Source: a virus. Taken from it: a DNA stretch of 54,252 nucleotides. Below, piece by piece: positions 20,234-53,251 of the stretch (positions within the stretch are counted from its first letter, which is position 1; the number at the start of each line of letters is the position of its first letter). Both the position numbers and the translations under genes were made by a program. Below the pieces are notes generated by a model, which made no database searches, had not been told where the DNA came from, and saw nothing but the letters and a program-made list of their open reading frames with translations. Location of the stretch: positions 1 to 54,252 of IMG/VR virus record IMGVR_UViG_3300017788_000032; one strand, 5' to 3'.

Positions 20234-20836
20234 ATGAAGCGAAATTTTGTCAAATTATTTGAATCTGCATTACAGCGTTATTCTAGTGGTGGTTTTCTTA
20301 CCGGAGACGTAGTTGTTTTTAGAGAAGGAGCTATGAGCGATGAGTGGTTTAAGTCGTTAGGTAGTAATACTAAAGAGAAGATTAAAAACATGGTAAATAG
20401 TGGTTTAAATTTACGTGTATCTGCTATTAAAAATAAGTATCCTAATGTTGGTGGCGCGGGTAACACAGATTTTATAGGATCTGATGTAGATGTTGATATC
20501 ACGTCAGAAATTGCACCTGGTCGTTATATGGATTTTGTTACAGTTCCTGGTAGATTGCTCGAGCCTAAGAGTTCATACCCTAATTTACCTGAAGTACCTG
20601 AAGTATTTAAAAAAGACGATCCCAGTAAGCGCACAAACATAAAGCCAGAGGTTGTAAAGGACGAGCAAGAGGAAGTGCCTTTTTTCTCTCCAGCGCAAAC
20701 TCGTCTATCTGATGTTGGTAATAAAAAGCTATCAAAAGGTGATCGCGAATTAAAGAATCAAAATGTGAAGATACCTTCGTCTCCCGCCAAAGGTCATAAT
20801 GACCCGGCAAGCTATACAGCTAATTACCTTCCTTAA
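20234..20836 (+). CDS. Hypothetical late protein, 200 aa
   Basis: I do not recognise a family. The N-terminal half (KLFESALQRYSSGGFLTGDVVVF..., GSDVDVDITSEIAPG) looks globular. The C-terminal ~90 residues are charged and Pro/Lys-rich, likely disordered, ending PASYTANYLP. There is no signal peptide or membrane segment. A late box 6 nt upstream places it with virion genes, so a minor head or assembly protein is a reasonable guess. Its last 17 nt overlap the 3' end of the convergent gp44 gene. No Shine-Dalgarno is visible. Confidence 0.75.
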   Translation: MKRNFVKLFESALQRYSSGGFLTGDVVVFREGAMSDEWFKSLGSNTKEKIKNMVNSGLNLRVSAIKNKYPNVGGAGNTDFIGSDVDVDITSEIAPGRYMDFVTVPGRLLEPKSSYPNLPEVPEVFKKDDPSKRTNIKPEVVKDEQEEVPFFSPAQTRLSDVGNKKLSKGDRELKNQNVKIPSSPAKGHNDPASYTANYLP

Positions 20837-21758
20837 TATTAGATAGCGCAATAAAGCACGAATAACAGTTTATTTCTTGGTCTACTACAAAGCTGCTTCT
20901 ATAAATGTACTCAGATAGTGTTAAGAGATAGTCTCTCTTGAGACTATCTGCTAACTTAAGACGGTCGATGTAATTAAACAAGTTTCTCATCAATGTTACA
21001 TAGTCATGATTAAACTGATTTTCGTTTTCTATCAAAGCTTTTCTTAAAGTAGTAATATTTTTGTTCTGTATTTCTTTAAAGATAAGATCTAGAACCTCTT
21101 GATTGCCAGTTTCTGCTAAGTTAAGTGTGCCTGAAGAAGAAAATTTTTGTAATTCATTAATACATTTACGTAAATCAGGATAATTGCTTTTTATAAATTC
21201 TAAAAGTTTGGGTTTTTCAGTGTTTGGGATTTCTATCTTTTCTGCTTTTAAGATTAACGCGCATCTCTTAACTACCCCGTCAAGAGGCGGTGTCAAATCA
21301 AAACTTTGACATCTACTTTGTAGTGCCGGTATAACTCTGTACTTATAATTTGCTGTTAAAATAAATCTTGTAATCTTAGCAAACTCTTCCATCGTATTAC
21401 GTAGGGCTCGTTGAGCGTCCAATGATAGACCATCGGTTTCATCTAGAATAATAACCTTTATTTTACCATCAAAGCTTTTAGTCTGAGCAAAGCTTGTAAC
21501 TTTATTACGAATAGTATCAATTCCATTCTCATCACTTGCGTTTATATAGAGATATTGGCAATCTAATATATCGTTTACCAGGATTTTCGCAAGAGTGGTC
21601 TTACCTAACCCGGGGGTACCAAGGAATAATAGATTAGGTATTTCTTTTTTTGTCTTAAACGATTCAATTAATGGCTTATTGTTATCAGAAATAACAAAAT
21701 CACCTAGAGCTTTAGGTCTATATTTTTCAACCCAAAGATTATTAAAATCAACATTCAT
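20820..21758 (-). CDS. gp44: Clamp loader ATPase subunit gp44 (RFC-like AAA+)
   Basis: 312 aa, as in T4 gp44 (319 aa). It loads the gp45 sliding clamp onto primer-template DNA using ATP. Motifs: N-terminal VEKYRPK, Walker A GTPGLGKT (47-54), Walker B ending DETD (106-109) in place of DExD, sensor 1 RFILTANYK (~131-139) and the arginine-finger SRC motif (148-150). The ATG overlaps the dUTPase stop (TAATG), so it is coupled to dut and driven by the promoter at 22232-22259. The partner gp62 was not found in this window. Confidence 0.95.
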   Translation of the reverse strand: MNVDFNNLWVEKYRPKALGDFVISDNNKPLIESFKTKKEIPNLLFLGTPGLGKTTLAKILVNDILDCQYLYINASDENGIDTIRNKVTSFAQTKSFDGKIKVIILDETDGLSLDAQRALRNTMEEFAKITRFILTANYKYRVIPALQSRCQSFDLTPPLDGVVKRCALILKAEKIEIPNTEKPKLLEFIKSNYPDLRKCINELQKFSSSGTLNLAETGNQEVLDLIFKEIQNKNITTLRKALIENENQFNHDYVTLMRNLFNYIDRLKLADSLKRDYLLTLSEYIYRSSFVVDQEINCYSCFIALSNIKEGN

Positions 21759-22264: not shown

Positions 22265-22272
22265 TATAAATA
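22265..22272 (+). promoter_or_regulatory. Late promoter TATAAATA, 5 nt before ATG at 22278
   Basis: Exact late consensus, divergent from the early dut promoter within a 52-bp intergenic gap. Confidence 0.75.
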
Positions 22273-22277
22273 TTATT

Positions 22278-22742
22278 ATGAGTGAAGAGCTTAATGAAAT
22301 GGTGGGTGATCTACTAGAACAGCTTCAAGATGCAAATCAAAAAGCAGAGCAAGCTAAAAAAGAGAATAACCCTCTTAAAAAAGAAGATATGGAAAGATTT
22401 GTGGTGGAGAAAGCTGGCAAATTAGTAGAGGAAAGCTTAGAAGTTGTGTCTAATGTAAAGGAATACATCTCTTCTGCACCTGAAAGCAAGGATGTTGGTA
22501 GTTTAGCAGAGTTAATAGCTGCAACTTCAACAGCGATTGAGACGTTAAACAAGATTATAGTAACGGATAAAAAGAACGAAACTACAATTAAAGCAAAAGA
22601 GATGGATATTACTTCTAGAAAAGAGCTTAAAGAGGTAGATAATAACACAAAATTACTAGCCACAAGAGAGCAAGTGTTTAAGATGTTAATAGATAGTGCA
22701 AATAAGAGCGCTAAAATTATTGACGCTGAAATAGTAGAGTAA
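22278..22742 (+). CDS. Helical protein, candidate small terminase subunit (gp16-like)
   Basis: 154 aa, almost entirely helical and charged. Residues ~40-110 (KAGKLVEESLEVVSNV..., AELIAATSTAIETLNKI..., TTIKAKEMDI) follow the pattern I associate with T4-like gp16: a helical pair with a stretch of conserved Leu/Ile, then a Lys-rich tail. gp16 oligomerises and feeds DNA to gp17. The size matches (T4 gp16 164 aa). It has its own exact late promoter but is not next to gp17, which lies about 14 kb away. A scaffold or core protein is the main alternative. Confidence 0.45.
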   Translation: MSEELNEMVGDLLEQLQDANQKAEQAKKENNPLKKEDMERFVVEKAGKLVEESLEVVSNVKEYISSAPESKDVGSLAELIAATSTAIETLNKIIVTDKKNETTIKAKEMDITSRKELKEVDNNTKLLATREQVFKMLIDSANKSAKIIDAEIVE

Positions 22743-35415: not shown

Positions 35416-35422
35416 TATTTAT
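35416..35422 (-). promoter_or_regulatory. Late promoter ATAAATA, 6 nt before ATG of gp18
   Basis: Strict core in a 40-nt intergenic gap; no Shine-Dalgarno between box and ATG. Confidence 0.7.
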
Positions 35423-45283: not shown

Positions 45284-45475
45284 TTATTCTTGTTTGTCGT
45301 CTTTAGGCAAATCTCTAACTGAAACTATGCCTTTACGAATAAAGGTGCCACTAGCTGGGTCAATGTATTCTGCCTCTACAACTTCCTTACCTTCACGAAT
45401 ATAAGTTCTAAGTCTCGGTCTAACCATTTGACCGCTAATAGGTGAGGCGATAGGTTTTGGCTGTATAAAGTCCAT
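45284..45475 (-). CDS. Conserved-looking small late protein, 63 aa
   Basis: MDFIQPKPIASPISGQMVRP begins the protein. The centre has ...EAEYIDPASGTFIRKGIVSVRD, a compact beta pattern I associate with a small conserved protein of marine T4-like phages of unknown role. A TATAAATA box 5 nt before the ATG makes it a late gene, unlike its replication neighbours. It may be a small head or tail component. Confidence 0.65.
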   Translation of the reverse strand: MDFIQPKPIASPISGQMVRPRLRTYIREGKEVVEAEYIDPASGTFIRKGIVSVRDLPKDDKQE

Positions 45476-45480
45476 AAAGT

Positions 45481-45488
45481 TATTTATA
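45481..45488 (-). promoter_or_regulatory. Late promoter TATAAATA, 5 nt before ATG at 45475
   Basis: Exact consensus embedded among replication genes, giving one late gene inside an otherwise early region. Confidence 0.7.
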
Positions 45489-45489
45489 T

Positions 45490-45768
45490 CTATTCTACTG
45501 GTTGCAATGCCTTATTTTTAATGTATTGTGCTTTGCATACATTGTATATATCGTTAGGTATTTTCTTAACTATATCGATTATTTTTTCGGTTAACCCAAA
45601 CTCAAACTTATCTTTAGGAACCTCTCTAATCTTCATATCTGGTAAAGATAAAAATAAAAAAGAATCATTTAATTCTTCCATTAAAACGAACAATTCACCT
45701 AAATATTTACCCCCGGTAATAGCATAAATGTATCTCTCTTTGGGGTGCTTTTGTTTGAAAAAGATCAT
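45490..45768 (-). CDS. Hypothetical protein, 92 aa
   Basis: Small mixed alpha/beta protein (RYIYAITGGKYLGELFVLMEEL, FLFLSLPDMKIREVP, then a Lys-rich helix). No family recognised. The ATG overlaps the epimerase stop (ATGA), so it is coupled to the epimerase gene, and it precedes the late 63-aa gene by 14 nt. Confidence 0.6.
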   Translation of the reverse strand: MIFFKQKHPKERYIYAITGGKYLGELFVLMEELNDSFLFLSLPDMKIREVPKDKFEFGLTEKIIDIVKKIPNDIYNVCKAQYIKNKALQPVE

Positions 45769-46601
45769 AATAACTTTATACTCTTTTCTACTGAAACAAA
45801 GGTATCAGGTAGTTCAAGACCTAGTCTTTTAATTTTATCAGTAGATAGAACGCAATTAGACCTACCGGCGACTATATCGAGGTCTTTAATTTCTACAAAT
45901 TTCCAATTCTCGTTTACCTTATGAATTGATTTAAATAAGCTTACAATTTCATCAGCACACATAGACTGGGTATTAACAACGTTATAAATTCCTGGTTCAT
46001 ATCTATCTAAAAACTTCAAAATAAATTCGTTTAAATCATCAATAGAAGTAAGACTATTTTGAGAACTAATTAAGTTATCGTATTTAAAAATTTTATAAAG
46101 ATAATTTTTACTCTCTCTTATTGAAGTAAAGGGCATTCTTATTCTCAAAATAACGTTATGCTGCTTTTCAAAAACAGTTTCAAATGCATGCTTAGTCTTA
46201 GAATAAAAGCTAGAAGAAGGATTAAAGAGTCCGAAATTTGGAACGTCGGTTTCTTCAAATGCTTTTTCATAACCAGTATATATACATCCGCTTGAGATGT
46301 GTATTGCTTTAATACCGTACCGCAAGGAAAGCTTATCTATTAGCTGAGGTACCACTACGTTATATTTCCAGCATAGTTCTTTATTTAATTCACAACCATC
46401 AACATTTGGAACTCCGGTATAACCGCAGCAATTAATAATATGAGAAAAATTATATTCTCTTAAAAATGATGAAAGTCTATACTCATTAGTATAATCTAAA
46501 ACGTTTTGATTAAATGCTAATACGTCAAGATTTTTTTCTGTTAGAAAGTTAAAAAGCTTAGTACCGATAAAGCCGCGACCCAGTATTAATATCTTGTGCA
46601 C
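45765..46601 (-). CDS. NAD(P)-dependent nucleotide-sugar epimerase/reductase (RmlD-like)
   Basis: 278 aa short-chain dehydrogenase/reductase of the extended RmlD/epimerase type. Cofactor motif GRGFIG (8-13), acidic/Asn cofactor strand, NCCGYTGVPNVDGCE (substrate/cofactor loop), Ser at HISSG (~103) and catalytic YSKTK (Tyr133, Lys137). It would make or finish a deoxy- or rearranged nucleotide sugar, plausibly feeding the GT block at 1-8.7 kb. Start GTG at 46601; a TATACTA-like element lies 9 nt upstream. The closest specific reaction cannot be set. Confidence 0.85.
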   Translation of the reverse strand: MHKILILGRGFIGTKLFNFLTEKNLDVLAFNQNVLDYTNEYRLSSFLREYNFSHIINCCGYTGVPNVDGCELNKELCWKYNVVVPQLIDKLSLRYGIKAIHISSGCIYTGYEKAFEETDVPNFGLFNPSSSFYSKTKHAFETVFEKQHNVILRIRMPFTSIRESKNYLYKIFKYDNLISSQNSLTSIDDLNEFILKFLDRYEPGIYNVVNTQSMCADEIVSLFKSIHKVNENWKFVEIKDLDIVAGRSNCVLSTDKIKRLGLELPDTFVSVEKSIKLL

Positions 46602-48062: not shown

Positions 48063-48485
48063 TCAATCGTTATTTAAAAGCTTATCTAATTTTTTAGAAA
48101 TAATATCTAATTTATAGTAAATGTCATCAATATCGGTTTGCTTAAAATTGAAAGTAAGTTGATCGGGATTTTCTGCAATAACATTTTCAATTTGCTGATG
48201 TACTAGCTGTTGACCATGAACCGGTTGAGCAATAGGAGGTTGAACATTAATACCGGCGTTAACTGTTGTATGTATTGGGTTTTGATAAGCAGGGGGTCTG
48301 ACCACTCTAGGAGCAGGGATTGTGTTAACCACTCTCTCAGGGTCAATTGTCATGCCGCGAAGAGTTTGATTTTGGCTTACAATATTTTTATTAAGCTCTT
48401 TAAGATCACCAATAAGATGTTGGCCCATAAATTGTATGGTAGCCAACCTTATTTCTTCAGGTGTAGGTTCTGAAAAAGTATCCAT
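48063..48485 (-). CDS. Hypothetical coiled-coil protein next to gp32, 140 aa
   Basis: N-terminal helix (PEEIRLATIQFMGQHLIGDLKELN), a Pro/Gln/Val-rich central linker (PAPRVVRPPAY..., NVQPPIAQPVHGQQ), and a C-terminal helix YYKLDIISKKLDKLLNND. It overlaps the gp32 stop by one base (TAATG), so it is made with SSB. No family recognised; a protein that pairs with the replisome or SSB tail is possible. Confidence 0.6.
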   Translation of the reverse strand: MDTFSEPTPEEIRLATIQFMGQHLIGDLKELNKNIVSQNQTLRGMTIDPERVVNTIPAPRVVRPPAYQNPIHTTVNAGINVQPPIAQPVHGQQLVHQQIENVIAENPDQLTFNFKQTDIDDIYYKLDIISKKLDKLLNND

Positions 48486-49330
48486 TATAGATCTTTAAGA
48501 AGTTCAGAAATCTTCTCATCGTCTTCGGCTTCTACTTTCTTTGAAGTAGTCACGTTAACGACGGGAGCAGGTGCTGAGGTTTTCTTAACAGACTCAACAA
48601 CGGCATCTTCTTCTACATCCTTTGTACCGTGATAATGAGTATCGAGAGTTTCCTTAAGCTCATCGTAGCTCTTCACCGAAACATAAGACTCGAGATCAAA
48701 TGCACTGTTATAGATCTTTTTAAAGGAATCTTCATCTAAGCCTTCAATTTCTTTCGATGTGGAAAACTTAGATGAGACGTATGTAGGATAATCGCCTTGC
48801 TTTTCAACCTTAATCTTAAGATTACATCCCTTAGGAGAAAGATCAAAAATACGGGGGCCGAGCTCTGAGGCTTCCTCGCCTTCAATGGCGTCCATAATAA
48901 TCTTGTGAAGCTGGCGGCCAAAGCGAAGAAGCTTTACTTTACCGTTATTATCTTGATTGACGGGGTCGTTTACAACATATACATTTACTAGCCAATTCTC
49001 TCTACGCTTAATTGCTAAAGCCTTTTCCTTTTCCTTTTCAGTACCAGTGCGAAGTACACGATATCGCTCTTCAGCAATAGGATCTCTCTGATTCCAAGTC
49101 GTCGGGCTAACTAGTGTAATGAGTTGACCGGTAGTAAGGCTGTTCCAGCCGTATGAATAGTAATGAAAAAATGTCTTTGCAGGGTCTTTAACATTAGGGA
49201 GTAATCTAACTGTATAAGTGTTACCGACCTCGCAACGAAGATAATCCTTTACTTTAGAAGAAGTCGACTCACTATTTTTGCTTAACGCGCCCTTAATGCT
49301 CTCAAACATCGAATTGGTAAATGTACTCAT
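48485..49330 (-). CDS. gp32: Single-stranded DNA-binding protein gp32
   Basis: 281 aa (T4 gp32 301 aa). The OB-fold core includes CEVGNTYTVRLLPNVKDPAKTFFHYYSYGW, ENWLVNVYVVNDPVN and GKVKLLRFGRQLHKII. The C-terminal tail is acidic with an EDDEKISELLKDL end, typical for recruiting replisome partners. The T4 zinc module is absent: only two Cys occur, at ~33 and ~170, not the H-C-C-C set. It binds ssDNA cooperatively and interacts with gp59, which is probably the next gene upstream. Confidence 0.9.
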   Translation of the reverse strand: MSTFTNSMFESIKGALSKNSESTSSKVKDYLRCEVGNTYTVRLLPNVKDPAKTFFHYYSYGWNSLTTGQLITLVSPTTWNQRDPIAEERYRVLRTGTEKEKEKALAIKRRENWLVNVYVVNDPVNQDNNGKVKLLRFGRQLHKIIMDAIEGEEASELGPRIFDLSPKGCNLKIKVEKQGDYPTYVSSKFSTSKEIEGLDEDSFKKIYNSAFDLESYVSVKSYDELKETLDTHYHGTKDVEEDAVVESVKKTSAPAPVVNVTTSKKVEAEDDEKISELLKDL

Positions 49331-49361
49331 AGTAATATAGTAGTATGTTCTTTCTATTAAA

Positions 49362-50018
49362 TCAAGCTTTATTTATAATTTTTTTTAGGCCAAGCTCTAC
49401 TAATTTGCCTGCTTTTTTAGAATTGTAGAGTTTTGTTCTAAAAAAGGATATATTGTTATATGTTTCTTCACCAAGTATAAACTTTACAACTTCAGCATCT
49501 CTTGACTTTAATCTTCTTTCAAAATCAGGAAACCCAAATAAAACAAATAAGCTTATGTCATGATTTTTGAGGTGAATAATGAATGACAATTCATTATTTG
49601 TCATATGATTGACATAATTTAATACATTAATATTTCTATCTTTACAAAAATTATAAATAAACACTAACGATTTTTTTATACCGTTCAGCTGTTCTTCAGA
49701 ATCTGGATCTTGAAGCAATTGTTTTTTATTAAAAAGAGTATACGTCTTAGTAGCTTTTAGTGAATGAAAATATTCTAAAGGAAAATAAGTTTCATCTGGA
49801 TATAATGCGAACGGAGCTTTAAAAAATTCTTCAAGTTTAATTTGTGGATATCTTTTTAAAAAAGATGAAACTTTTTTTAGAGCCACAAAGCTCTTTTCAT
49901 CTAATTTTTCAAAATCTTTTCTAAACTTAAAGGGTTGGTTATTACTAGACCTTGAAACCTTTAAATATGTATTATAAACGCGTTTATCGAACTCAGTAAT
50001 CAATTGTAATATTTCCAC
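49362..50018 (-). CDS. Probable helicase loader gp59
   Basis: 218 aa, the same length as T4 gp59 (217 aa), helical and basic. The C-terminal half (YVNHMTNNELSFIIHLKNHDISLFVLFGFPDFERRL) resembles the gp59 C-terminal pattern of helix-then-FETFILL. T4 order is 33-59-32; here a gp33 candidate and bS21 precede and gp32 follows. gp59 loads gp41 onto gp32-coated DNA. Start GTG at 50018 overlaps the bS21 gene by 19 nt. The call rests on size, character and order, not a diagnostic motif. Confidence 0.55.
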   Translation of the reverse strand: MEILQLITEFDKRVYNTYLKVSRSSNNQPFKFRKDFEKLDEKSFVALKKVSSFLKRYPQIKLEEFFKAPFALYPDETYFPLEYFHSLKATKTYTLFNKKQLLQDPDSEEQLNGIKKSLVFIYNFCKDRNINVLNYVNHMTNNELSFIIHLKNHDISLFVLFGFPDFERRLKSRDAEVVKFILGEETYNNISFFRTKLYNSKKAGKLVELGLKKIINKA

Positions 50019-50212
50019 TTATTACGAGACAATTCTTTTTTTACCCTTCTTAATGCACTAGGCTTGTAATAACATCTCTTTAGACGCAATTCATCTATTA
50101 CTCCGGATTTTAAAAATTCTCTGCTAAACTTATTATATGCTCTATCAAAATAAGCTTTATCTGTACTTTTCTTTTTGTCCAACTTTACATATGCATTAAC
50201 TACTTTACTCAT
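50000..50212 (-). CDS. rpsU-like: Ribosomal protein bS21 homologue
   Basis: 70 aa. The core FDRAYNKFSREFLKSGVIDELRLKRCYYKPSALRRVKK (residues 22-59) matches bacterial bS21: A..F.R...KSG...E.R....Y.KPS..R.k. The N-terminal MSKVVNAYVK strand is also bS21-like. bS21 sits at the 30S platform near the anti-Shine-Dalgarno end of 16S rRNA. Phage-encoded bS21 is known from some marine and huge phages and is thought to join host ribosomes during infection. Coupled between the gp33 candidate (ATGA) and gp59 candidate. The phage-mRNA preference is inference. Confidence 0.8.
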   Translation of the reverse strand: MSKVVNAYVKLDKKKSTDKAYFDRAYNKFSREFLKSGVIDELRLKRCYYKPSALRRVKKELSRNKWKYYN

Positions 50213-50505
50213 AAAAATAAACTCTTTTTGCTGCTGTTTAAAAACTTCATCACGTATTTACTTTTATACAAGCATGAATCGAATTGCAAGAAAAATTTAA
50301 TAGCGATAAAGTCATTTTTTAAATCACAATATTCTTTAAATAGCTCCCTTAAGGTTTTGTTCTTTAATAATTGTATAAACACATTCGCTAAGTTCAACTT
50401 TTTAGTATTTGTCAGTGTTACAAAAGTACAAAAAGATAGGAACAGGTGGGTTTGCTCGTATTCGGTTAGCTGTTCTAGCGGATCGTACCCTTTCACAGTC
50501 AACAA
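50209..50505 (-). CDS. Candidate late co-activator gp33
   Basis: 98 aa, helical. T4 gp33 is 112 aa, sits immediately before 59-32, and ends in a short hydrophobic clamp-binding tail (LDFLL). Here the order is the same with bS21 inserted, and the C-terminus ends in SKKSLFL, a comparable hydrophobic tail. It would link RNA polymerase to gp45 for late transcription. The internal sequence is too divergent for a motif-based call. Start TTG at 50505; a GTG three codons later is possible. Confidence 0.45.
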   Translation of the reverse strand: MLTVKGYDPLEQLTEYEQTHLFLSFCTFVTLTNTKKLNLANVFIQLLKNKTLRELFKEYCDLKNDFIAIKFFLQFDSCLYKSKYVMKFLNSSKKSLFL

Positions 50506-50530
50506 CTAATTATTGACTGTTTTTGCAAAA

Positions 50531-51857
50531 TCAATTGTCTATAGCGAGTTTGGATAGGGTATTTATAGAAGAGGTACTAGCTTCAGTGTCATTTATATGT
50601 TCATCCTCGGTTATTGTCAACGTAGAATAGTCTATTCTCATAGCGCAATGTCCAAAATTTGGACCGAACCGGTTCTTCATAAAGCCCATTTTAATAACCC
50701 CTAATTCTTTATCTGTGTCTTCTTGCCAAATACTCAAAATAACGTCGCCTGTCATGGCCAACCCTATACTTTCTGATATTGTCTTTAAGCCAGGATCTGT
50801 CGTCTCATATCCTTCTCTATTAAGCTGTGTGGCTGATATAATAGGACAATTAAATGTATATGATAAGGCTCGTAACTGCTCAGTGCATATTTTGATTCTC
50901 TCATAACTACTATCACCCATAGGGGCTCTTAATAAGTTGACATAATCGAGAACTACTGCATCAATTGTTATTCCCTTTTGAATTAGTTTTTTAACAAATG
51001 CTCTTAAATGGTTGGCTGTAATTGTTGCAGGTGGAAACTCTTTAATAATAATTTTAGAGTTTGGCTTCTCTACACAATACTCAGATATCTGACTTTTAAG
51101 AGTTTCAGATTCTATCTTAAGCTGGCTTAAAGGTATCTTAGAGACACTGGAGCATAGTCTTTTTGCATATATAAGTTCAGGCATTTCAAGAGAAACAAGT
51201 AAAACAGTTTTACCTTGATTAGCAATATTAACTGCAACGTTACCAAGAAATATACTCTTACCAATATTTGTTTCCCCGGCAAACATGTAAAGGGCTCTCC
51301 CTTCTTCAAGGAATCCCCCACCAATCTTATCATCTAGCCATTTCCATCCCGAGGGAATATATTTTTCTGAAGAGTTTAAATCATTTATAACTTTATCAAT
51401 ATCTACAAACAAGTCTAATCCAATTTCTGTAGTAAGCGAAAGACTACAAGCTTTTTCAAATTTTTCTAAAATACGAGAAGTGTCGACTTCATTTTTATTG
51501 ATATCATCTACTACTTCCATCATTGTATGGTAGACAGATTTTTCTTTTAAAAATGTTTCTGTATTAGCTGAAAGTTCATCAACATTTATATTTTTATCAA
51601 TATTATTAAAAAGCGTGACAACATTTTTTAATGAAAGCTTTAACTCATCGGTTGTAAGATAAGCTTTAATTTCAGTAATTGTGGGTTTGGTATTTCTCTT
51701 TTCGTAAAAGTCTAATAATGGTAAAAATAGCTTTAATATCTTTGTTCTTGAAATACAAAGGCTTTATATAATCAATAATTGAAGCTAGATACGTCTCATC
51801 GGTAAGCGATTTGTACGCAATAATAGTCTCAAAATAATCTAGATCTAATTTAGCCAT
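50531..51857 (-). CDS. gp41: Replicative helicase gp41 (DnaB-like), frameshifted near the N-terminus
   Basis: Reads as two frames: 51672-51857 codes the start (KLDLDYFETIIAY..., DIKAIF) and 50531-51523 the core. Between them the +1 frame continues without stop through LDFYEKRNTKPTITEIKAYL. The span is one base too long; a five-A run at 51723-51727 is the likeliest extra base, and four would give about 441 aa. T4 gp41 is 475 aa. The RecA-like core has FAGETNIGKS (Walker A), VVLDYVNLLR (Walker B), the ISATQLNREGYET segment and a basic FMKNRFG near the C-terminus. It unwinds DNA ahead of the fork with gp61 primase. Confidence 0.85.
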
Positions 51858-51887: not shown

Positions 51888-52571
51888 TCAAGAACCGTTA
51901 TACTCTTTTAAAAACGTCTCTTGACTCTTAGTAAAGCGTTTATCGCTTGGATTTAAAAGGCCGGGTGAACTGTGTAATACCCAGATTGGTGCAACCCCGA
52001 GTTTTAATTTCTTTCTATTTGCATCTATAGAGCTGGCGATGTCGTAATGATGAAAATCATAGTTTTCATTAAATCTCCATCCTGAGCTTATAGCTGCTTT
52101 AGTGCTTACGCTTAAAAACAACCCATCTAAAATTGTTACCCGGCTTGGTGTAGGACCGAAGGAAGTAACCATAATTTCATTCTTAGAACAAGGATGTGCT
52201 ACCGCTCCTCTTAAGTTGGTACTTTCAAATCCACCACACATTAAATGCCAAAGAGCAGGCTTCTTAATGCTAGGGTTAAGTCCCCCTGCAAGTCCAACAA
52301 TATCAAATAGCTTATGAGCTCTCTCTAGCTTTTCCAATATATTAAAATCGTCTACGTATACATCATCATGTAAAAAAACAATATAATCGTAATCGTTTTT
52401 ATATTTCTCTAGAATTACGTTATAATTTTTACTTAAACCAGTAGTATTATTAGTATTATAAAAAATATCAAACGACCCGTTATAACGGTTGTGAATCTTT
52501 TCTAAGGATTTTTGTGAATAACAATCATCGACGGAAGGAGCTCGTGTAGCAAAATAAAAAGCTGTTTTCAT
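51888..52571 (-). CDS. GT2-like glycosyltransferase (Glyco_tranf_2_5 type)
   Basis: 227 aa. TGLSKNYNVILEKYKND leads to YIVFLHDDVYVDDF (DD metal site). The FDIVGLAGG, LDGLFLSV and FHHYDI segments match the StrF-related GT2_5 family, with a His-His-Tyr-Asp motif common near the acceptor site. Soluble. The ATG overlaps the class II glutaminase stop (ATGA). The two genes may act on the same sugar product, with the epimerase nearby. Acceptor unknown. Confidence 0.75.
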   Translation of the reverse strand: MKTAFYFATRAPSVDDCYSQKSLEKIHNRYNGSFDIFYNTNNTTGLSKNYNVILEKYKNDYDYIVFLHDDVYVDDFNILEKLERAHKLFDIVGLAGGLNPSIKKPALWHLMCGGFESTNLRGAVAHPCSKNEIMVTSFGPTPSRVTILDGLFLSVSTKAAISSGWRFNENYDFHHYDIASSIDANRKKLKLGVAPIWVLHSSPGLLNPSDKRFTKSQETFLKEYNGS

Positions 52572-53251
52572 AAGTTAAAAAAAGGAGAATTACTAGAAAA
52601 TTTACCGACGGATGTAATGCCTTCTTTTGTTAATAGATATAGCAGACCTTGCTCTAATTCAACAAAGTCTTTTTCTTTTAAAGAAGAAAAGTCGTTGGTA
52701 AGAAAATTAGCATAGACTGTACTTCCTGAGCGAGCCAAGTATATGTTACTAGACTTTTGATTATAAATCCAAATTCCGAACGTCCCTTTAAGCTGTGATA
52801 ATGCATTGCAAATAGCTGCGACCTCGTTAGTTGTTTTTCTGAAATAAAGCTCTATCAATGGAGCAATAACTGATGAATCTACTACATTATAAGACTTCTT
52901 ATCTGGTAATATCTTCTTTATTTCTTTATCATTAGTAAGAACTCCGTTGTGTGAAATAACCCAATCTTTCCATTGAAAAGGATGAGACGTAGAGGGTGAA
53001 AATGCTCTTTGTGCTGAAGTAGGTGCTTGAGTATGACCGAGAAATATATCAAAATCTGTAATTTTTTTTCGTCTTTTACCATATTCAATGACAAGACGGT
53101 TACTGAGTTGAACCACCCCAGGTGTCTTCAAAACAGCATGAATTTGCGATCCGATTAATAGACCGCCATAAGAAAATGTGCCTCTTTTCTTATTATTATT
53201 ATAGAGTTTTACGTAAGTTCTAAACTCTTTAGATCCAAATATGCCGCAAAT
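52568..53251 (-). CDS. Class II glutamine amidotransferase domain protein, AUU start
   Basis: 227 aa stand-alone Ntn glutaminase. It must start with a catalytic Cys; the frame reads ATT then CGIFGSKEF, with HTQAPTSAQ and SHNGVLTN downstream (GlmS/PurF-type oxyanion and glutamine site). Upstream in frame there is a TAG only four codons before the ATT, and no ATG, GTG or TTG. A perfect AGGAGG sits 8 nt before the ATT. So either AUU initiates, as in infC, or ATG was miscalled. The enzyme releases ammonia from glutamine; no synthase domain is fused, so a partner enzyme is expected. Confidence 0.8.
   Translation of the reverse strand: MCGIFGSKEFRTYVKLYNNNKKRGTFSYGGLLIGSQIHAVLKTPGVVQLSNRLVIEYGKRRKKITDFDIFLGHTQAPTSAQRAFSPSTSHPFQWKDWVISHNGVLTNDKEIKKILPDKKSYNVVDSSVIAPLIELYFRKTTNEVAAICNALSQLKGTFGIWIYNQKSSNIYLARSGSTVYANFLTNDFSSLKEKDFVELEQGLLYLLTKEGITSVGKFSSNSPFFNL

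Follow-up and report, generated by a model that had tools for sequence, protein, structure and literature searches.

A divergent bS21 homologue between gp33-position and gp59-like genes in T4-like aquatic phages with predicted leaderless mRNAs

bS21 is the commonest ribosomal protein encoded by viruses. Among the closest described systems, the freshwater phages of Bacteroidetes reported by Chen et al. 2022 (PMC9723584) are aquatic and poor in Shine-Dalgarno (SD) sequences and carry a bS21 proposed to swap into host ribosomes; its gene lies among capsid and terminase genes, on the opposite strand, and the Tyr54 position of the product is still aromatic. The pelagiphage HTVC008M (Mizuno et al. 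2019, PMC6375957) is T4-like and has a bS21 gene near cobS and the sliding clamp gene, not at gp33, with SD motifs in front of a part of its genes. In SD-poor Flavobacterium, the cellular bS21 governs the use of SD sequences by sequestering the anti-SD, and its own gene has a strong SD and is autoregulated (PMC9976891). In T4, late transcription depends on gp55, gp33 and gp45 and on the TATAAATA box, which lies 9-35 nt upstream of the genes with SD leaders in between, and dsbA, a small gene for a DNA-binding protein upstream of gene 33, overlaps this gene and is translationally coupled to it (PMC2988020).

The locus described here belongs to a viral DNA fragment of 54,252 nt (the whole stretch analysed, hereafter the window). 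In contrast to the phages of Chen et al., its bS21 gene is co-directional with its neighbors in a gp33-bS21-gp59 arrangement, overlaps the gp33-position ORF and encodes Asn at the Tyr54 position; unlike the Flavobacterium gene, it has no comparable SD and its product ends in a different C-terminus. With T4 it shares the TATAAATA box, the presumed gp33-gp59-gp32 order and, in a relative, a gp55 homologue, but in the clade of the window the late boxes are separated from the start codon by 5-6 nt. Like dsbA, bS21 is a small gene with a probable coupling to its neighbor, here the gp33-position ORF, but it is located downstream of this ORF. Phage-encoded bS21 is already known; the gp33-bS21-gp59 arrangement and the promoters starting at the initiation codon seem to be new. 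The features of the locus are:

50531..51523, minus strand: gp41-like DnaB-type helicase (PF03796, E 9.5e-27; phrog_19, E 3.6e-59)
50209..50505, minus strand: gp33-position ORF, presumed late-transcription co-activator (22-row alignment, synteny with T4 and cyanophages)
50000..50212, minus strand: bS21 homologue (PF01165, 33.7 bits), whose ATG overlaps the stop codon of the upstream ORF (ATGA)
49362..50018, minus strand: gp59-like helicase loader, 218 aa, best structural match T4 gp59 (1c1k)
48485..49330, minus strand: gp32 single-strand DNA-binding protein (PF08804, E 2e-19; phrog_224, E 3e-42)

The minus-strand ORF at 50000-50212 starts with ATG and encodes 70 aa. A sequence-only reading had taken the product for a bS21 with the family core pattern and proposed a profile search, which, once run, matched Pfam Ribosomal_S21 (PF01165) with E 2.9e-8 and 33.7 bits, above the curated gathering cutoff of 27; the PHROG S21 profile was matched as well. 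The score against the NCBIfam equivalog model TIGR00030 (26.7 bits) falls just below its cutoff of 28.95, so the protein is a divergent member of PF01165 and not an equivalog. A phmmer search with the window bS21 as a query matched many solved bS21 chains, including those from Lactococcus, Flavobacterium and E. coli. The viral contigs scanned contain 59 distinct relatives; all 12 of those checked exceed the PF01165 cutoff, and the K50-P51-S52 core that follows the two-helix region is invariant in the 15 relatives aligned and kept in nearly all others. In one subgroup (L070, L078, L079) TPS replaces KPS, the conserved KW is lost and the protein ends in HKRRFT or NKRRFA. The dN/dS values between close pairs are 0.01-0.18, i.e. 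purifying selection (values for distant pairs, compared without gap handling, are meaningless and were discarded). These values, together with the 59 relatives, argue that the ORF did not arise by chance; judged by its sequence, it is a genuine, divergent member of the bS21 family. DNA searches revealed no cultured relatives of the phage, and no copies of the window bS21 were found in bacterial genomes.

On the minus strand, bS21 is preceded by the gp41-like helicase gene and the gp33-position ORF and followed by the gp59-like gene and gp32, which supports its earlier placement inside a gp33-gp59-gp32 cluster, with gp32 recognized by profile, the gp59-like protein suggested by its best structural match and gp33 presumed from position. 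The gp33-position ORF encodes 95-98 aa, with a conserved start that is probably GTG at 50496 according to the 22-row alignment, and its C-terminus (KSKYVMKFLNSSKKSLFL) has a KK-x-LFL tail reminiscent of a clamp-binding terminus. Since hhalign, Foldseek and VIA-align gave no match to gp33, the gp33 assignment is presumed from position, size and the clamp-tail-like C-terminus. The model of the gp59-like protein, aligned with 496 chains, found 1c1k as the best match (Z 7.2, 174/217 residues, rmsd 13.5; next Z 4.8); the hhalign sequence-profile comparison with T4 gp59 was negative and Foldseek reported no significant match. Translation of this gene may start at GTG 50018 or at a codon closer to the bS21 stop. 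Elsewhere in the window, 20820-21758 encodes an RFC-type clamp loader subunit, which fits a T4-like replisome, and 45765-46601 and 52568-53131 encode an RmlD-like reductase and a GlmS-like glutamine amidotransferase domain, respectively. The related phage G001 carries GTP cyclohydrolase and QueD-like genes (L107:210-863 and L106:17437-18090), so a 7-deazaguanine DNA modification is possible there.

The gp33-position ORF lies immediately upstream of bS21 in 53 of the 59 relatives, with a gp59-like gene downstream; 50 relatives overlap it, 39 of them by exactly 4 nt (ATGA, TTGA or GTGA). In T4 and in the cyanophages (S-8S53, DSL-LC03), the gp33 and gp59 genes share a direct 4-nt overlap with no bS21 in between, which suggests that in the clade of the window bS21 was wedged into this very junction, probably by insertion. 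With the gp33-position ORF as a query, 300 relatives were retrieved and 80 loci kept; of the 74 loci read, 34 have an adjacent bS21 by a strict test and 7 more have an evident one that fails it, while in most of the others the ORF is directly followed by the gp59-like gene. A search for this ORF in 384 bacterial genomes of the candidate host class, carried out without a positive control, revealed no copies.

No late box lies 5-6 nt from the bS21 start. Two candidate control elements are found further upstream:

50507..50534, minus strand: promoter-like TTGATT-N16-TAATTA, upstream of the gp33-position ORF, recurring there in many relatives
50560..50567, minus strand: T4-type late box TATAAATA, upstream of gp33-bS21-gp59

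A comparable late box stands 309-355 nt upstream of bS21 in about twelve relatives. The pair of elements makes early plus late expression plausible, and thus also the earlier suggestion that bS21 is made before and during late expression. SD-like purines in front of bS21 (AAAAAGAG, AAAAAGG) were considered as a ribosome-binding site and rejected, as they are explained as codons of the KK-rich C-terminus of the upstream protein. The stop/start overlap suggests that bS21 is translationally coupled to the gp33-position ORF, and its synthesis would accordingly be co-timed with late transcription.

The genes of the window are SD-less: an SD core precedes 5% of them vs 7% in shuffled sequences (71% vs 15% in T4), and in the relatives such cores are at most modestly commoner than in shuffles (up to 15% vs 5%). 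The lack of SD leaders claimed in the sequence-only reading is thereby confirmed statistically. We searched for T4-type late boxes with the pattern [AT]TAAATA and calculated expected counts from a Markov model. The window has 21 boxes, and 16 of them stop 5-6 nt short of a start codon vs 0.3 expected; for 18 genes the distance between box and start codon is 5-7 nt; ten relatives have 14-37 such boxes per contig at 5-6 nt vs 0.2-1.2 expected, while none was found at this distance in the stretches of T4 and P-SSM2 tested. HTVC008M (L126, L134, L135) has 8 of 20 late boxes at this gap, above expectation, beside SD-led genes. Boxes similar to TATAAATA are present at late genes of the window and its relatives, in line with T4-type late transcription, and G001 encodes the late sigma factor gp55 (phrog_234, E 2.7e-27). 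A second class comprises TATAAT boxes, which in the relatives belong to TTGAC/TTGAT-spacer-TATAAT promoters ending 6 nt before ATG (14 TATAAT boxes in G001). Over 11 phage contigs, the late box at gap 5-6 far exceeds the Markov expectation in all and TATAAT at gap 6 exceeds it in most. Examples from the window are:

35416..35422, minus strand: late box ATAAATA, 6 nt before the ATG of the tail sheath gene (sheath phrog_23)
45481..45487, minus strand: late box ATAAATA (TATAAATA with the preceding T), 5 nt before the ATG of ORF 45284-45475
22266..22272, plus strand: late box ATAAATA (TATAAATA with the preceding T), 5 nt before the ATG of ORF 22278-22742
49337..49365, minus strand: gp32 promoter TTGATT-N17-TACTAT, ending 6 nt before ATG, predicted to be leaderless

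A sigma70 box that ends 6 nt before ATG has the usual geometry for transcription from the A of the start codon. The T4 late box starts at -13 (PMC2988020), hence a late box that ends 5 nt before ATG also puts +1 on the A. Both promoter classes would thus place +1 at or beside the start codon, and we infer from this geometry that the mRNAs are leaderless. The earlier impression of apparently leaderless mRNAs gains the promoter geometry of both classes, with boxes 5-6 nt from the starts, as its basis, the transcripts themselves being predicted.

The best 80 genome relatives kept for a different bS21, encoded by the sister phage G014, all come from Verrucomicrobiota, mostly Opitutales/Puniceicoccales; the candidates were picked by short peptide patterns, so this result is suggestive. 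Genes of Opitutia show no SD enrichment (21% vs 19%; 11% vs 10% in five low-GC genomes), the low-GC marine Opitutia have a GC content close to that of the phage, and TANNNT at gap 6, the signal expected for leaderless genes in the candidate hosts, is raised only slightly. Some Verrucomicrobia are counted in a published survey as SD-scarce bacteria in which CCUCC is conserved (PMC10783764). The host is therefore probably a member of Verrucomicrobiota and itself SD-poor, where the step from G014 to the window is an extrapolation. The 16S tail of the candidate hosts was found neither by the Rfam model nor by pattern search. The similarity of the window bS21 itself was rejected as a guide to the host, as bit scores fail to separate Opitutia, Lactococcus, Bacteroidota and E. 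coli (for E. coli and B. subtilis we used what we take to be the reference sequences). A Bacteroidota host was also considered and rejected, as TANNTTTG promoters, typical of this phylum, are not enriched.

Three sister phages, G013, G015 and G016, contain the gp33-position and gp59-like genes and gave no match to PF01165 (contigs of 131, 98 and 119 kb, possibly incomplete), and their late-box spacing and low SD content are the same as in the relatives that carry bS21. It follows that bS21 beside gp33 is not needed for the leaderless layout, and bS21 is not what makes leaderless, SD-less expression possible. In G014 the more host-like bS21 (60 aa) is encoded far from gp33 (L225:7046-7228).

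Our explanation, built from these observations and from the known behavior of the family, is as follows. In a T4-like aquatic phage, whose wider clade would have leaderless, SD-less mRNAs whether or not bS21 occupies this place, a bS21 gene was probably inserted between the gp33-position and gp59-like genes. Ribosomes that finish the gp33-position protein could restart on the overlapping bS21 start codon, which would make the output of bS21 depend on that of the presumed late co-activator when late transcription sets in. The phage bS21 would most likely exchange into the platform of host 30S subunits, next to the 3' tail of the 16S rRNA, and there keep the ribosomes active or bias initiation to phage mRNAs as the supply of host bS21 stops. 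We regard this explanation as a whole (a real, divergent bS21, coupled to the presumed co-activator and swapping into host 30S subunits) as probable on balance. The score below the equivalog cutoff and a C-terminus unlike that of cellular bS21 indicate that entry into the ribosome could fail or be altered. The HTVC008M bS21 does enter E. coli ribosomes, which are almost inactive with it (PMC6375957), so the outcome could also be inhibition and not biased translation.

A simpler possibility, somewhat doubtful in our view, is that the phage bS21 merely makes good the host bS21 that turnover or shut-off removes, keeping 30S subunits active with no preference for any mRNA. This agrees with the loose, exchangeable binding of bS21 (PMC6375957), with the purifying selection on the phage gene and with the host-like bS21 of G014, but the bS21 of the clade differs strongly from cellular bS21 at each of its two ends, which would be needless for pure replacement.

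A specific retuning, in which a 30S platform altered by the phage bS21 would make ribosomes choose leaderless phage mRNAs ahead of host mRNAs with leaders, seems to us unlikely. Every tested bS21-carrying contig of the clade has the leaderless, SD-less layout, and translation of bS21 is probably coupled to that of the presumed late co-activator. The C-terminus is also suggestive: Tyr54 of F. johnsoniae bS21 stacks on the 16S tail (PMC9976891), and this position is occupied by Phe in 77/77 Opitutia bS21 (rpsU loci L247-L326), by Asn64 in the window bS21 and by an aromatic residue (F or H) in only 8/53 phage relatives, whereas a Trp two residues further, part of a near-invariant KW, is present in 51/53 relatives and in the window. 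The window protein thus lacks the aromatic residue found in the Bacteroidetes-type phage bS21 of Chen et al. (For Opitutia, the Phe at this position and the SD-poor genes suggest that masking of the anti-SD may not be confined to Bacteroidota.) In Flavobacterium, a bS21 that has lost its C-terminus shifts the choice of mRNA, yet ribosomes without bS21 or its C-terminus gain initiation at strong SDs and work more slowly on SD-less mRNA (PMC9976891); if the phage C-terminus is simply non-functional, the phage would want the reverse. The same layout in the sisters with no detected bS21 weakens the retuning proposed in the sequence-only reading, and the SD-poverty of the likely host group means that the phage may simply match its host. 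As an adapter of ribosomes to leaderless mRNA the phage bS21 is not supported as stated, though it may add some bias toward phage mRNA. A broader idea is that the clade, with leaderless mRNAs for early and late genes alike, has joined its late co-activator and a bS21 in one coupled cistron pair; transcription and the make-up of the ribosomes would then change at the same time, and the phage-bS21 ribosomes would favor leaderless mRNA. This is slightly less likely still.

It is very improbable that this protein is a bS21-like RNA-binding factor that serves late transcription or replication as a partner of gp33 or gp59 and not the ribosome: its gene is strictly linked to the gp33-position ORF and the gp59-like gene, and this and the weaker match to TIGR00030 would fit, but the KPS core persists in nearly all relatives and the HTVC008M gene lies elsewhere in its genome. 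Equally improbable is that the boxes 5-6 nt before starts are a Kozak-like, AT-rich translation signal and the mRNAs not leaderless, for although start-codon-proximal sequence tunes initiation in Bacteroidota (PMC6847099), here two sequences stand at two distances (late box 5, sigma70 box 6), each fitting the geometry of its own promoter and not a single translation signal, the TATAAT sites are paired with TTGAC or TTGAT at promoter spacing, and control AT-rich 7-mers show no peak at the late-box distance.

Two points stand out. The two promoter classes with +1 at the start codon would, if true, amount to a genome-wide expression style that we did not find described for T4-like phages in the literature searched. 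The clade also offers a natural comparison, as close relatives with and without bS21 at gp33 all share the leaderless, SD-less layout, and this comparison separates the idea that bS21 enables leaderless translation, which it disfavors, from the idea that bS21 adds a bias or keeps the ribosomes running.
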